A DNA stretch of 5,921 bases, taken from positions 1 through 5,921 of the forward strand of contig JABHJJ010000123.1 of the NCBI GenBank assembly GCA_018691945.1. Reading direction: 5' to 3'. The DNA is from Candidatus Nitrosopelagicus sp. (GTDB lineage: Archaea > Thermoproteota > Nitrososphaeria > Nitrososphaerales > Nitrosopumilaceae). The position numbers and the translations under genes are program-made. The notes under the pieces are model-generated. The model was given only the letters and a program-made list of their open reading frames with translations, had not been told where the DNA came from and searched no databases. This document shows, in pieces, positions 3,534 to 5,891 of the stretch; within the stretch, counting starts at the first letter, position 1; the number at the start of each line of letters is the position of its first letter.

Positions 3534-3554
3534 AATTCTCTAGTGAATTTTCTT

Positions 3555-4388
3555 ATGAAAAAGATTATTTTTGGAATTACCTTTTTTGTCTTACTTTTTC
3601 CTATTGCTCATGTATTCGCTGATGACTTGACACTTAACATTGATAAGACAATTTATGAAAAATCTGATTTTATTTCTGTATGGGGGTCCACCTCCCTTGA
3701 CTCTGTTTTTATCTCTGTAAAAGATCCTGATGGAAATAATGTCTGGAATGAAAGCCTAAACTCTGATAACGAAAATAAATTCTCCACTTTGATAATTGCA
3801 GGAATTGGCGGATGGACAAAAAGTGGAAATTATCTGGTAGTGGCTGAATCTGGTAATTATGTGGCTTCTACAAAATTTTTCTACGATTCAGGCGCACAAG
3901 TAAATCCTCCTTCTGCAGTATCTGATTATTATGTTAGTCAAGAAGATCTATATCTCACATTTACCATTGCAGTAATCATTGTTGCAGGAATTTTCATTTA
4001 TCTTGCAAGACATATCATACTACGAAAAAAAACAAGTTATGATGATGCTAAATTAGATTCTAAAAAGAATCGTGATTATGAAAAATATCACTCTGAATGG
4101 TCAGAAGAAGAAATTTTTGGTTCACACAAATCAACTACTGATGCAAAAGAATTTCGTGAAATGTATAATGATAATTCCTTACCAAACTATTATCTTGTAT
4201 TGGGGTTGACAAATGATTCATCTCAATTAGAAATTAAAAATCAATACAGAAAACTCGCAAAACAATATCATCCTGATAGAAACAAGGATTCTTCAGAAGA
4301 AAAAATGGCTCAAATTAATAAAGCATATGAAATTTTGTCTGACAAAAAACTTAGAGCAGAATATGACAAGTTTTGCAAATTATTGTGA
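3555..4388 (+). CDS. Membrane-anchored J-domain protein with extracytoplasmic beta-sandwich-like domain
   Basis: This 277-residue protein has four parts. Residues 1-22 are a Sec signal peptide (MKKIIFGITFFVLLFPIAHV, then FA before DD). Residues about 24-115 are a beta-rich outer domain. Residues about 131-152 are one membrane helix (LTFTIAVIIVAGIFIYL) followed by basic RHIILRKK, placing the C-terminus inside by the positive-inside rule. Residues 153-210 are a polar linker, and 211-272 a complete J-domain with HPD at 239-241, a basic helix II (YRKLAKQY) and helix III (QINKAYEILSD). J-domains stimulate DnaK ATPase through HPD, so this protein should recruit DnaK to the inner face of the membrane. 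The outer domain is homologous to that of the PEFG-CTERM protein at 5412-5891. The Gly/Phe-rich and zinc-finger parts of classical DnaJ are absent. Start 3555 is chosen over GTG 3543 from the signal-peptide form and TATA spacing. Its last 9 bases overlap the minus-strand gene. Confidence 0.9.
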   Translation: MKKIIFGITFFVLLFPIAHVFADDLTLNIDKTIYEKSDFISVWGSTSLDSVFISVKDPDGNNVWNESLNSDNENKFSTLIIAGIGGWTKSGNYLVVAESGNYVASTKFFYDSGAQVNPPSAVSDYYVSQEDLYLTFTIAVIIVAGIFIYLARHIILRKKTSYDDAKLDSKKNRDYEKYHSEWSEEEIFGSHKSTTDAKEFREMYNDNSLPNYYLVLGLTNDSSQLEIKNQYRKLAKQYHPDRNKDSSEEKMAQINKAYEILSDKKLRAEYDKFCKLL

Positions 4389-4766
4389 CTCTATAATCAC
4401 ATCTTTTAGTGTTAGATAAAGAACAACTTTAGATACATTTTGCATGCTGTTTGTAAGATTTGTTACAAGTGAAATTTTTTGTCCATCTTTATTATCTCCT
4501 TGTAACGTTATATCTAGAAAATCTTTGTTTGGTCCAAGCATGGCCTTTGAGAGATGCTTTGATACACTTGTATCTCGAATAGTTGCTTGTACCTTCAACT
4601 CTTTCAATTCTGCAAAATACACCCCTCCTCTTGTTGTAGGCTCTGTGATTGGGTTTTCTGTCTGAAAAACCTTAATTTCATTCACTGCAAAAGAATTTTC
4701 TCCAATTAGCATCCTAAAATTCGAGCTGTTTTTGTGTACTATTTCTTGCAATTCTTTTTCATTCAT
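4380..4766 (-). CDS. Conserved-looking hypothetical protein, 128 residues
   Basis: I do not recognise this protein. It begins with a helical stretch (MNEKELQEIVHKNSSNF), then alternates short strands: MLIGENSFAVNEIKVFQ at 19-35, GGVYFAELKELKVQATI at 47-63, FLDITLQG at 83-90, QKISLVTNL at 96-104 and KVVLYLTLKDVII at 113-125. This predicts a small beta-rich fold. There is no Cys, no membrane segment and no signal peptide, so it is likely cytoplasmic. The TEPTTRGGVYF loop at 41-51 and the HLSKAMLGPNKDF segment are the most distinctive parts. It is divergent from the rhodanese gene with 51 bp between starts and a TATA box exactly midway, so the two may be coordinately expressed. Its stop lies inside the 3' end of the J-domain gene (9-bp tail-to-tail overlap). 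The opposite strand at 4444-4665 is open but shows no domain and no promoter. Confidence 0.8.
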   Translation of the reverse strand: MNEKELQEIVHKNSSNFRMLIGENSFAVNEIKVFQTENPITEPTTRGGVYFAELKELKVQATIRDTSVSKHLSKAMLGPNKDFLDITLQGDNKDGQKISLVTNLTNSMQNVSKVVLYLTLKDVIIESQ

Positions 4767-4786
4767 TACCTATTTGAAAAAATTAA

Positions 4787-4797
4787 AAAATATATGT
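4787..4797. promoter_or_regulatory. Symmetric TATA box shared by two divergent leaderless genes
   Basis: ATATAT at 4790-4795 is self-complementary and centred at 4792.5. That is 25.5 nt from the rhodanese ATG at 4818 and 26.5 nt from the minus-strand ATG at 4766. Both distances match leaderless archaeal promoters, so one TBP site could serve both directions. Only 51 bp separate the two start codons, leaving no room for two independent complete promoters. Confidence 0.65.
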
Positions 4798-4817
4798 CAA
4801 TACAATTGTAGTTAGAT

Positions 4818-5111
4818 ATGGCAGAATCTATATCAAAAGACCAACTAAGACAAGAACAAGACCAATTTGTTATAATTGATGTCAGAGAACCAGATGAGAT
4901 TGCAAATGGGGCAATTGAAAACTCTCAGAATATGCCTTTAGGACTTGCTATAAGAAATGCAAAAAAAGGCCAAATCGATGACCTCAAAGATAAGAAAATC
5001 TGTGTTTATTGTGTATCTGGTTACCGTGGAAACATTGCAGCTGATGAATTAGTAAAGGCTGGATTTTCTGTAGTAAATCTCGAAGGCGGTTACATGGCAT
5101 GGGCTCAATAA
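4818..5111 (+). CDS. Single-domain rhodanese-like sulfurtransferase
   Basis: This 97-residue protein is one rhodanese domain, the usual length of GlpE/PspE-type members. Residues 17-27 hold the FVIIDVREPDE strand and CH2A-like motif; NMPLGLAI at 38-45 replaces the common H-x-P-x-A segment. The active-site loop is CVSGYR at 65-70, with Cys65 as the persulfide-carrying nucleophile in the standard C-x-x-G-x-R form. The domain closes with VVNLEGGYMAWAQ. The expected chemistry is transfer of sulfane sulfur from a donor such as thiosulfate or a persulfide to an acceptor thiol or carrier; substrate and partner are unknown. It is cytoplasmic. ATG 4818 has a TATA box 26 nt upstream. The stop TAA is followed at once by the SWIM-domain reading frame in the same phase, suggesting cotranscription and possibly linked function. 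Confidence 0.93.
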   Translation: MAESISKDQLRQEQDQFVIIDVREPDEIANGAIENSQNMPLGLAIRNAKKGQIDDLKDKKICVYCVSGYRGNIAADELVKAGFSVVNLEGGYMAWAQ

Positions 5112-5354
5112 TTGAGTTCTAATACAATTAGAAAGGCACAAAAACTTGTTGACAATGGGGGGGTTGTAAAAATTGAAGATGATCTTTTTCAAGTAAAATC
5201 TACAAGTGATCCTTCTAAATCTTATTTTGTAACTCATGATTCTTGTGAATGCCCTGGCTTCAAAAATTTCTATAAATTTCATCATGGAAAAGGTTTGAAA
5301 GCAAATTGCTCTCATTTGGAGGCAATTCGTATATTTCTAAAAGAAAATAAATAA
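5112..5354 (+). CDS. Small SWIM-type zinc-finger protein
   Basis: This 80-residue protein has the SWIM signature C-x-C-x(n)-C-x-H: C45 and C47 in DSCECPGF, then C66 and H68 in NCSHLEAI, with 18 residues between C47 and C66. Residues 1-40 form a helix (NTIRKAQKLVDNG) and strands (VVKIEDDLFQVKS, KSYFVTH), the usual lead-in to SWIM fingers. SWIM domains bind zinc and act in DNA or protein contacts; they occur with SNF2 ATPases, MuDR transposases and Rad51-paralogue partners. Here the domain is free-standing. The only usable start is TTG at 5112, directly after the rhodanese TAA; no in-frame ATG or GTG leads the domain and no Shine-Dalgarno is visible. Translation may rely on termination-reinitiation from the rhodanese, or on readthrough. 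A seven-G run at 5157-5163 near the start is unusual for this AT-rich sequence. Confidence 0.85.
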   Translation: MSSNTIRKAQKLVDNGGVVKIEDDLFQVKSTSDPSKSYFVTHDSCECPGFKNFYKFHHGKGLKANCSHLEAIRIFLKENK

Positions 5355-5360
5355 AAAATG

Positions 5361-5377
5361 CTGATTGATTGAATCAG
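5361..5377. promoter_or_regulatory. Short inverted repeat just upstream of the PEFG-gene TATA box
   Basis: CTGATT at 5361-5366 and AATCAG at 5372-5377 are perfect 6-bp arms around a GATTG spacer. The element ends 4 bases before the TATA box at 5382. It could be an operator or activator site near the BRE, or a weak hairpin ending the rhodanese-SWIM transcript. No T-run follows directly, which makes an operator slightly more likely, but a 6-bp repeat may occur by chance. Confidence 0.3.
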
Positions 5378-5380
5378 ATT

Positions 5381-5391
5381 GTTTATATATA
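5381..5391 (+). promoter_or_regulatory. Strong TATA box for the PEFG-CTERM gene
   Basis: TTTATATA at 5382-5389 is the clearest TATA box in the window. Its centre is 26.5 nt before the GTG at 5412, predicting a leaderless mRNA starting at that codon. It lies inside the longer reading frame that begins at 5379, which argues against an upstream start. Confidence 0.7.
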
Positions 5392-5411
5392 CATATTCGG
5401 TACTTCTACCA

Positions 5412-5891
5412 GTGATTAACTCAAAACACACACTGACAATTTTGGCAAGCATAATGCTAGTCGCAGGTATGCCTTTGGCATTTGCAGATATGCATGGTGA
5501 TGGCTTGACAATTGAAGCAGATGCAGTTGAGGGTTCAACAACAATCACCATCACAGGACACGCTACCTCAAGTAACGTTCCTGTAACAATCATGGTAATT
5601 GCTCCAAATGGAAACGTTGTTTCTATTGATCAAATCAACCCTGATTCTGATGGCTCATTCACTTCAACAATCGGTGTTGGTGGTCCAATGTGGAAACAAG
5701 ACGGCGAGTATTCAATTACCGCACAACAAGGTTCTAACAATATGAACAAATCAACCGTTGTAGTAGAAGTTGCTGATGGCGCAGTAGTTCCAGAATTTGG
5801 TACAATCGCATCTTTGGTACTTGTTGTTGCAATTTCTTCAATCGTAGTACTATCTGCAAAAGGCAGACTTAGCTTCACACCACGAATCTAA
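5412..5891 (+). CDS. PEFG-CTERM surface protein with beta-sandwich-like domain
   Basis: Counted from GTG 5412, this is a 159-residue exported protein. Residues 1-25 are a signal peptide (INSKHT basic start, hydrophobic TILASIMLVAG core, cleavage after LAFA). Residues about 31-120 are a beta-rich, Ser/Thr-rich outer domain. At 127-130 is PEFG, followed by a hydrophobic helix (about 131-149) and a short basic tail containing KGR and a final PRI. This tripartite end is the thaumarchaeal PEFG-CTERM signal, by family knowledge cut and re-attached by an archaeosortase-type membrane transpeptidase, so the mature protein is probably lipid-anchored on the outer face. No sortase gene is visible here. 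Outer-domain residues 58-107 align ungapped with 51-100 of the J-domain protein (17 identities by eye). The frame extends upstream to TTG 5379, but TATA spacing and signal-peptide form favour GTG 5412. It is probably an independent transcript, well expressed given its TATA box. Confidence 0.88.
   Translation: MINSKHTLTILASIMLVAGMPLAFADMHGDGLTIEADAVEGSTTITITGHATSSNVPVTIMVIAPNGNVVSIDQINPDSDGSFTSTIGVGGPMWKQDGEYSITAQQGSNNMNKSTVVVEVADGAVVPEFGTIASLVLVVAISSIVVLSAKGRLSFTPRI

Follow-up and report, generated by a model that had tools for sequence, protein, structure and literature searches.

The closest described counterpart of the gene considered here is DjlA of Escherichia coli, which has a short outer N-terminus, a single transmembrane (TM) helix and a cytoplasmic C-terminal J domain, and whose induction of the Rcs envelope response is reported to need a working J domain, the TM helix, DnaK and GrpE (excerpt of PMC11709261). 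The DNA analysed (the window) is a stretch of 5,921 nucleotides from a member of Candidatus Nitrosopelagicus, a genus of likely marine archaea, and carries a gene for a predicted membrane J-domain protein (the J protein) upstream of a gene for a predicted PEFG-CTERM surface protein. In its short form, found in other genera, the J protein is predicted to share the DjlA layout; it differs from DjlA, which has a TerB-like domain between the TM helix and the J domain, in having an EKYHS.W segment at that place, and in the window's genus it adds an outer immunoglobulin-like (Ig) domain. No account of this membrane J protein was found in the open-access literature searched. The explanation that we favour, and hold to be somewhat probable, is a lineage-specific insertion of an Ig domain, probably of the subfamily represented by a membrane protein here called D, onto a DjlA-like co-chaperone, which would give the co-chaperone an outer handle.

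The J protein (277 amino acids; 3555..4388, + strand) was recognized from its open reading frame, a match to Pfam DnaJ (PF00226) and family-wide relatives; its start is taken as the ATG at 3555, with an in-frame GTG at 3543 as an alternative. The predicted layout, read in the same orientation, is a signal peptide (residues 1–22, 3555..3620; by eye and from an AlphaFold2 helix at residues 2–14), an MG2-like Ig-fold domain outside the cell (residues 25–111, 3627..3887), one TM helix (residues 129–155, 3939..4019; AlphaFold2 helix and sequence) and a cytoplasmic J domain (residues 211–271, 4185..4367), the C-terminus being predicted to be cytoplasmic because the TM helix ends in the basic stretch RHIILRKK. 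The J domain scores 78.6 bits against a Pfam cut-off of 27.8, and its HPD signature (H239, P240, D241) is invariant in 24/24 aligned J-domain rows; an Hsp70 gene (PF00012) was found both in the window's own genome (G000) and in the congener G019. Between the TM helix and the J domain lies the juxtamembrane motif SKKNRDYEKYHSEW (residues 169–182, 4059..4100), in which EKYHS.W is conserved at all 64 J loci tried; over the 54 unique J cores aligned, conservation of segment 169–182 (0.85) exceeds that of the J domain (0.70). The Pfam scan gave no TerB match in the J protein, two chance-level matches below cut-off overlapping the interval between TM helix and J domain, and the DjlA model NF006948 reaches 31.6 bits, below its cut-off of 162. 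Because it lacks a TerB-like domain, the J protein would at most work like DjlA and is no member of that family.

Among the matches listed, J proteins with the outer domain (ectodomain) are confined to the window's genus. Of the 31 genomes of the genus, 24 have a J match, in every case starting at residue 19 or before it, so that the Ig domain is included; these genomes were labelled by identity of the J protein to that of the window as clade A (19 genomes, 52–100%) and its sister clade B (5 genomes, 38–43%), and the other seven have no J match at E 1e-25. Outside the genus, J matches at E ≤1e-20 come from at least 16 genera, and among those listed all begin at query residue 96 or later; their open frames measure 167–243 amino acids, nearly all fewer than 205, which beside the TM helix, linker and J domain leaves no room for an Ig domain. 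At eight loci read from eight other genera the J proteins (171–196 amino acids) are without an Ig domain, and all eight show the short form: signal peptide, short outer stretch, TM helix, conserved linker with the motif, and J domain. The longest frames from other genera that were fetched (L145–L148) contain no Ig domain either; a second insertion, considered for them, was discarded, L145 and L146 having longer Ala-rich N-termini and L147 and L148 being ordinary. In a class-wide search the J core was found in 88/200 genomes and 17/56 genera, all within the window's family, and no J orthologue from outside the family, with or without the ectodomain, was listed at E 1e-20. Orthology is supported by gene position, since in 14 of the 20 J-bearing genomes of an aEF-2 tree, G019 included, no more than 13 kb separate the J gene from that for aEF-2 (the two genes are on different contigs in four genomes and far apart in G001 and G006). 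In this tree of 30 genomes, for which the root of the family was not inferred and from which G020 was excluded for want of a full aEF-2 match, short J forms flank the window's genus, so that gain of the ectodomain in the stem of the genus is the simplest reading.

The outer domain of the J protein was compared with the downstream PEFG-CTERM protein (159 amino acids, GTG start; 5412..5891, + strand; TIGR04296 at 43.5 bits, cut-off 25), an ordinary member of the PEFG-CTERM proteins of ammonia-oxidising archaea (excerpt of PMC6593220), which carries an MG2-like Ig-fold domain at residues 33–120 (5508..5771) and the PEFG-CTERM sorting signal at residues 125–153 (5784..5870; TIGR04296). The first-pass annotation had proposed that the same outer domain is used in both proteins, citing a gapless 50-residue alignment with 17 identities. 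This alignment was reproduced exactly (J residues 51–100, 3705..3854; PEFG residues 58–107, 5583..5732) and no other ungapped pair of 50 residues from the two N-terminal stretches compared does better. Smith-Waterman comparison of the two outer domains scores 94 (2000 shuffles: mean 28.5, maximum 57; z 11.9), BLASTP of the whole proteins aligns 29/88 identical residues (E 9e-9 for this single comparison), and hhalign of 11 clade-A J ectodomains against 10 neighbouring PEFG domains gives a significant match (97.5% probability, E 8.8e-12, score 63.8; 50 column-shuffled profiles, ≤18.6). AlphaFold2 models both J residues 25–111 (pLDDT 82–92 per ten-residue block, residues 31–110) and PEFG residues 33–120 (pLDDT 65–88) as beta-sandwiches; a single solved MG2 domain, from human alpha-2-macroglobulin, is matched by both. 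Of the outcomes that the first-pass annotation had named as refuting it, a missing profile match and differing folds, neither was seen. The shared stretch is accordingly best described as one homologous domain, predicted to adopt an MG2-like Ig sandwich and to lie outside the cell. The proposal stands in that the two domains are homologous and of one superfamily, and in that one module is anchored in two ways about 1 kb apart, by the PEFG-CTERM tail and by a predicted TM helix; the word "same" goes too far for distant members that fall into different subfamilies.

Likeness to the MG2 domains (PF01835) of alpha-2-macroglobulin and complement C3/C5 is a matter of fold only, and the window proteins, unlike these, have no protease-trap parts: against a Pfam cut-off of 32.8 the PEFG protein scores 18.4 bits and its counterpart at locus L063 30.9, the scan gave no MG2 match on the J ectodomain, and some longer relatives such as P0176 have MG2 as a precomputed annotation. 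The Ig-like arrays of the Nitrosopumilus maritimus S-layer (excerpt of PMC11153153) and the pentameric S-layer protein 7ptp belong to the same broad fold class, and 7ptp_A appears among the structure matches of both models, at rank 1 for the PEFG protein and rank 50 for the J protein. Unlike S-layer proteins, the window domains are single, that of the J protein is membrane-proximal, and a sequence search of the PDB gave only one chance-level match for the J ectodomain (E 0.17) and none for the PEFG domain. The bacterial adhesin repeat 6xi3, from the extending region of a large adhesion protein, forms a long tandem array as against one copy in the window, and it is not among the best 50 structure matches listed for the J model.

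Within this superfamily the J ectodomain most closely resembles D, a protein of about 220–250 amino acids that consists of some 100 N-terminal residues, a TM helix and a C-terminal Ig domain (topology judged by eye, with the N-terminus taken as cytoplasmic) and in which, for three D proteins scanned, no Pfam family scores above cut-off. Matches from J to D begin at D residue 121 or later, the Ig domain alone being held in common; the J protein is without the N-terminal part of about 100 residues and the TM helix that precede this domain in D. When the window's J ectodomain was compared with 85 domains, the top 25 scores all belonged to D domains (best 190, D mean 154), the best PEFG-type score being 102, and a D domain was the best-scoring partner of each of the 11 clade-A ectodomains compared. 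By hhalign the J ectodomain matches D at 99.8% and E 6e-28, as against 97.5% and E 8.8e-12 for the neighbour's domain. A Trp-x-Glu motif is found in 11/11 clade-A J ectodomains and 31/32 D domains, compared with 0/10 neighbouring PEFG domains and 5/39 other PEFG-type domains, and FSTLxIA occurs in 10/11 clade-A J ectodomains; both patterns were picked after the sequences had been seen.

A tree was built from 101 of the 123 domains collected; domains shorter than 78 residues were dropped, as were J and PEFG rows that nearly duplicated others and the odd domain L010. One clade of 47 rows (support 100/98) holds 46 of the 49 PEFG-protein domains, including all ten neighbouring ones, and one other domain, but no J domain; the remaining three PEFG-protein domains fall elsewhere. 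By the approximately unbiased (AU) test, a clade of J ectodomains with the neighbouring PEFG domains is rejected (p 0.0009, at a cost of 78.8 log-likelihood units, lnL), as is one restricted to clade-A J ectodomains (p 0.0096, 70.4 lnL), while J with D is not rejected (p 0.40) and a tree constrained to unite clade-A J with D lies 3.3 lnL above the free tree. These comparisons suggest that the J ectodomain most likely derives from the D-type subfamily of outer domains and not from the adjacent PEFG gene.

A search with one D protein finds matches in 132/200 genomes of the family at E 1e-12. Of these, 18 match through the J ectodomain only and two (G009 and G026) through another Ig protein, which leaves 112. 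The G026 match (L201:343-1164, − strand) is a 273-residue PEFG-type protein and not a D protein, and that in G009 (L200:1200-1667, − strand) is a protein of 155 amino acids with a signal peptide, a D-type Ig domain and a C-terminal TM helix, from which it follows that the D-type subfamily reached the membrane at least twice. The layout of this last protein is that of the J ectodomain minus the J part. Within the genus, D was found in 0/19 clade-A genomes, among them the 99% complete, single-contig G019, in 4/5 clade-B genomes and in four of the seven genomes with no J match. Searching clade A at E 0.1 with the N-terminal 113 residues of D gave other proteins as best matches (E ≥9.5e-5), and in G019 the best E was 0.039. 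This pattern, together with the D-type motifs retained in clade A, is as would be expected if the ectodomain had taken on the role of D in clade A and drifted freely in clade B, where D is still present.

Several points weigh against deriving the ectodomain from D and letting it take the place of D. The clade-B ectodomains are without the D-type motifs (0/5) and far diverged (28–31% in local alignments), a single origin of the clade-A and clade-B ectodomains is supported at 93/63 only, and hhalign places clade A nearer D than clade B. The AU test also leaves a grouping of J with all PEFG-type domains unrejected (p 0.33), and the domain tree, with its 91 columns, has few supported deep forks, so that the origin from D rests mainly on similarity scores; moreover, since a D-type domain has another host in G009, the donor need not have been D itself. 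The contrast of 0/19 with 4/5 does not count as independent evidence, because absence of D and presence of the J ectodomain make up one event; D and the J ectodomain coexist in four clade-B genomes, and small genomes lose genes anyway. Over 30 genomes, with G009 scored as lacking D despite its D-type domain, presence of D and of the J core agrees in 24 (15 with both, nine with neither), five having J only and one D only; co-occurrence was tried as a sign of a functional link between the two and dropped, the four to five independent changes on the aEF-2 tree (sign test, p 1) being too few for a test. As to the likeness to DjlA, the TM segments of another protein are reported to be able to replace the DjlA helix (excerpt of PMC11709261).

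The first-pass annotation had gone on to suggest a homotypic contact or a shared ligand. On this reading the two outer domains would bind one another, or both would bind a common molecule, and the sorted surface protein would signal to the co-chaperone. Beyond the homology and the common predicted fold, what speaks for this is the neighbourhood: a PEFG gene stands beside J, 1.0–1.4 kb away, in 17/19 clade-A genomes (the exceptions are G168, where it is on another contig, and G150, with no match at E 1e-25), and when the eight other carriers of the module in the complete congener G019 are placed at random, one falls within 1.9 kb of J with a probability of about 0.024, calculated post hoc. The module is common, however. 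A profile of 12 domains (A3) finds ten matches in nine open frames of the window's own genome, which is 63.5% complete, and 12 matches in nine open frames of G019; the E-values in G000 are inflated because A3 held copies from that genome, and one seed profile included the J and PEFG domains. Carriers in the own genome include a C121 protein with a C-terminal hydrophobic segment, a large C75 protein and three tandem PEFG-CTERM proteins on contig C197 (L002:60-2676, − strand), each with one Ig domain near its N-terminus. With a module so common, the nearness of two carriers is weak evidence. That the two genes stay together holds for clade A but extends neither to clade B (PEFG gene beside J in 0/5) nor to other genera (0/8 loci, about 5 kb read on each side); a conserved pair was therefore set aside, the arrangement being kept in close relatives only. 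At the clade-A loci L063–L065 the intervening 128-residue and rhodanese genes keep their order too, as expected of close genomes. The PEFG protein has matches in at least 198/200 family genomes at E 1e-4, the best listed extending to the PEFG tail, as against an ectodomain confined to one genus among the matches listed. Taken with the difference in subfamily, this makes direct or shared binding very improbable, and J and PEFG do not emerge as a special pair. The J-adjacent PEFG gene has changed its number of Ig copies within clade A, with one in the window and two in the more distant relatives L063 (6713-7585) and L064 (498-1376).

That the J ectodomain arose locally, by duplication of the neighbouring PEFG gene and fusion, might be supposed from proximity and from the significant similarity of the two domains, but we regard it as extremely improbable: both AU tests reject, under the model used, the clade that it predicts, the 47-row PEFG clade holds all ten neighbour domains and no J domain, and in clade B, where the J ectodomain is present, no PEFG gene was found alongside. 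An ancestral ectodomain, with a long J protein in the ancestor of the family and the short form derived by loss, draws on the root of the family tree not having been inferred, yet is very improbable, as short forms flanking the genus in the aEF-2 tree would call for several losses. The Ig domain could also be a passive spacer, free of ligand, that merely keeps the protein in place between membrane and S-layer, or shields it, while the J domain works unchanged. This would fit a faster evolution of the ectodomain than of the cytoplasmic part (identity to the window 49 and 64% in L063, 56 and 63% in L064, and 28 and 46% in L060) and the persistence of short forms without an Ig domain in at least 16 genera; conservation of Trp-x-Glu in 11/11 and of FSTLxIA in 10/11 clade-A ectodomains goes beyond what a spacer needs, and we consider the spacer unlikely, if well short of negligible.

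Under the favoured reading, insertion of a D-type Ig domain onto a DjlA-like co-chaperone, the short core J protein would act as a tether in the membrane, recruiting DnaK (Hsp70) to the envelope's inner face much as DjlA does, and a partner would probably dock at the invariant EKYHS.W segment. The inserted Ig domain would then contact an envelope component near the membrane, such as the stem of the S-layer, another Ig protein or a glycan, and this outer contact may place or switch the co-chaperone, so that contacts outside the cell would steer chaperone work inside it. An S-layer of the N. maritimus type is a candidate ligand, no more, put forward because that S-layer is an Ig-like array reaching toward the membrane (excerpt of PMC11153153). 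The inserted domain may in this way take over what D did in relatives. As for the neighbouring PEFG protein, it would belong to a set of several surface proteins that share this common fold, and it need not be a partner.

Other genes of the window include one for a protein of 128 amino acids with no family match (4380..4766, − strand), placed tail to tail with J. A relative of it (33–43% identity) stands tail to tail with J at 8/8 loci of other genera, and the ends of the two genes overlap at seven of these; none was detected at the three clade-B loci read (L060–L062, two of them near a contig end). The 128-residue protein is, by this gene order, a candidate for functional partnership with the J protein. 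Upstream are a 242-residue protein (451-1179, + strand), whose sole match above cut-off is a LON substrate-binding domain without the ATPase and protease parts, and an SNF2-family helicase of 570 amino acids (1239-2951, + strand), relatives of which lie within about 5 kb of J at loci of the genus and at L055 and L067 of other genera.

Neighbouring proteins of the same fold, as this locus teaches, need not be partners. The fusion itself may also be read as a Rosetta stone, telling that in other genera of the family D cooperates with the short membrane J protein, which we think possible but rather doubtful. The family's membrane J protein, whose juxtamembrane motif is invariant, offers a concrete target, and its lineage-specific outer domain allows a natural comparison, before and after, of what an ectodomain contributes.

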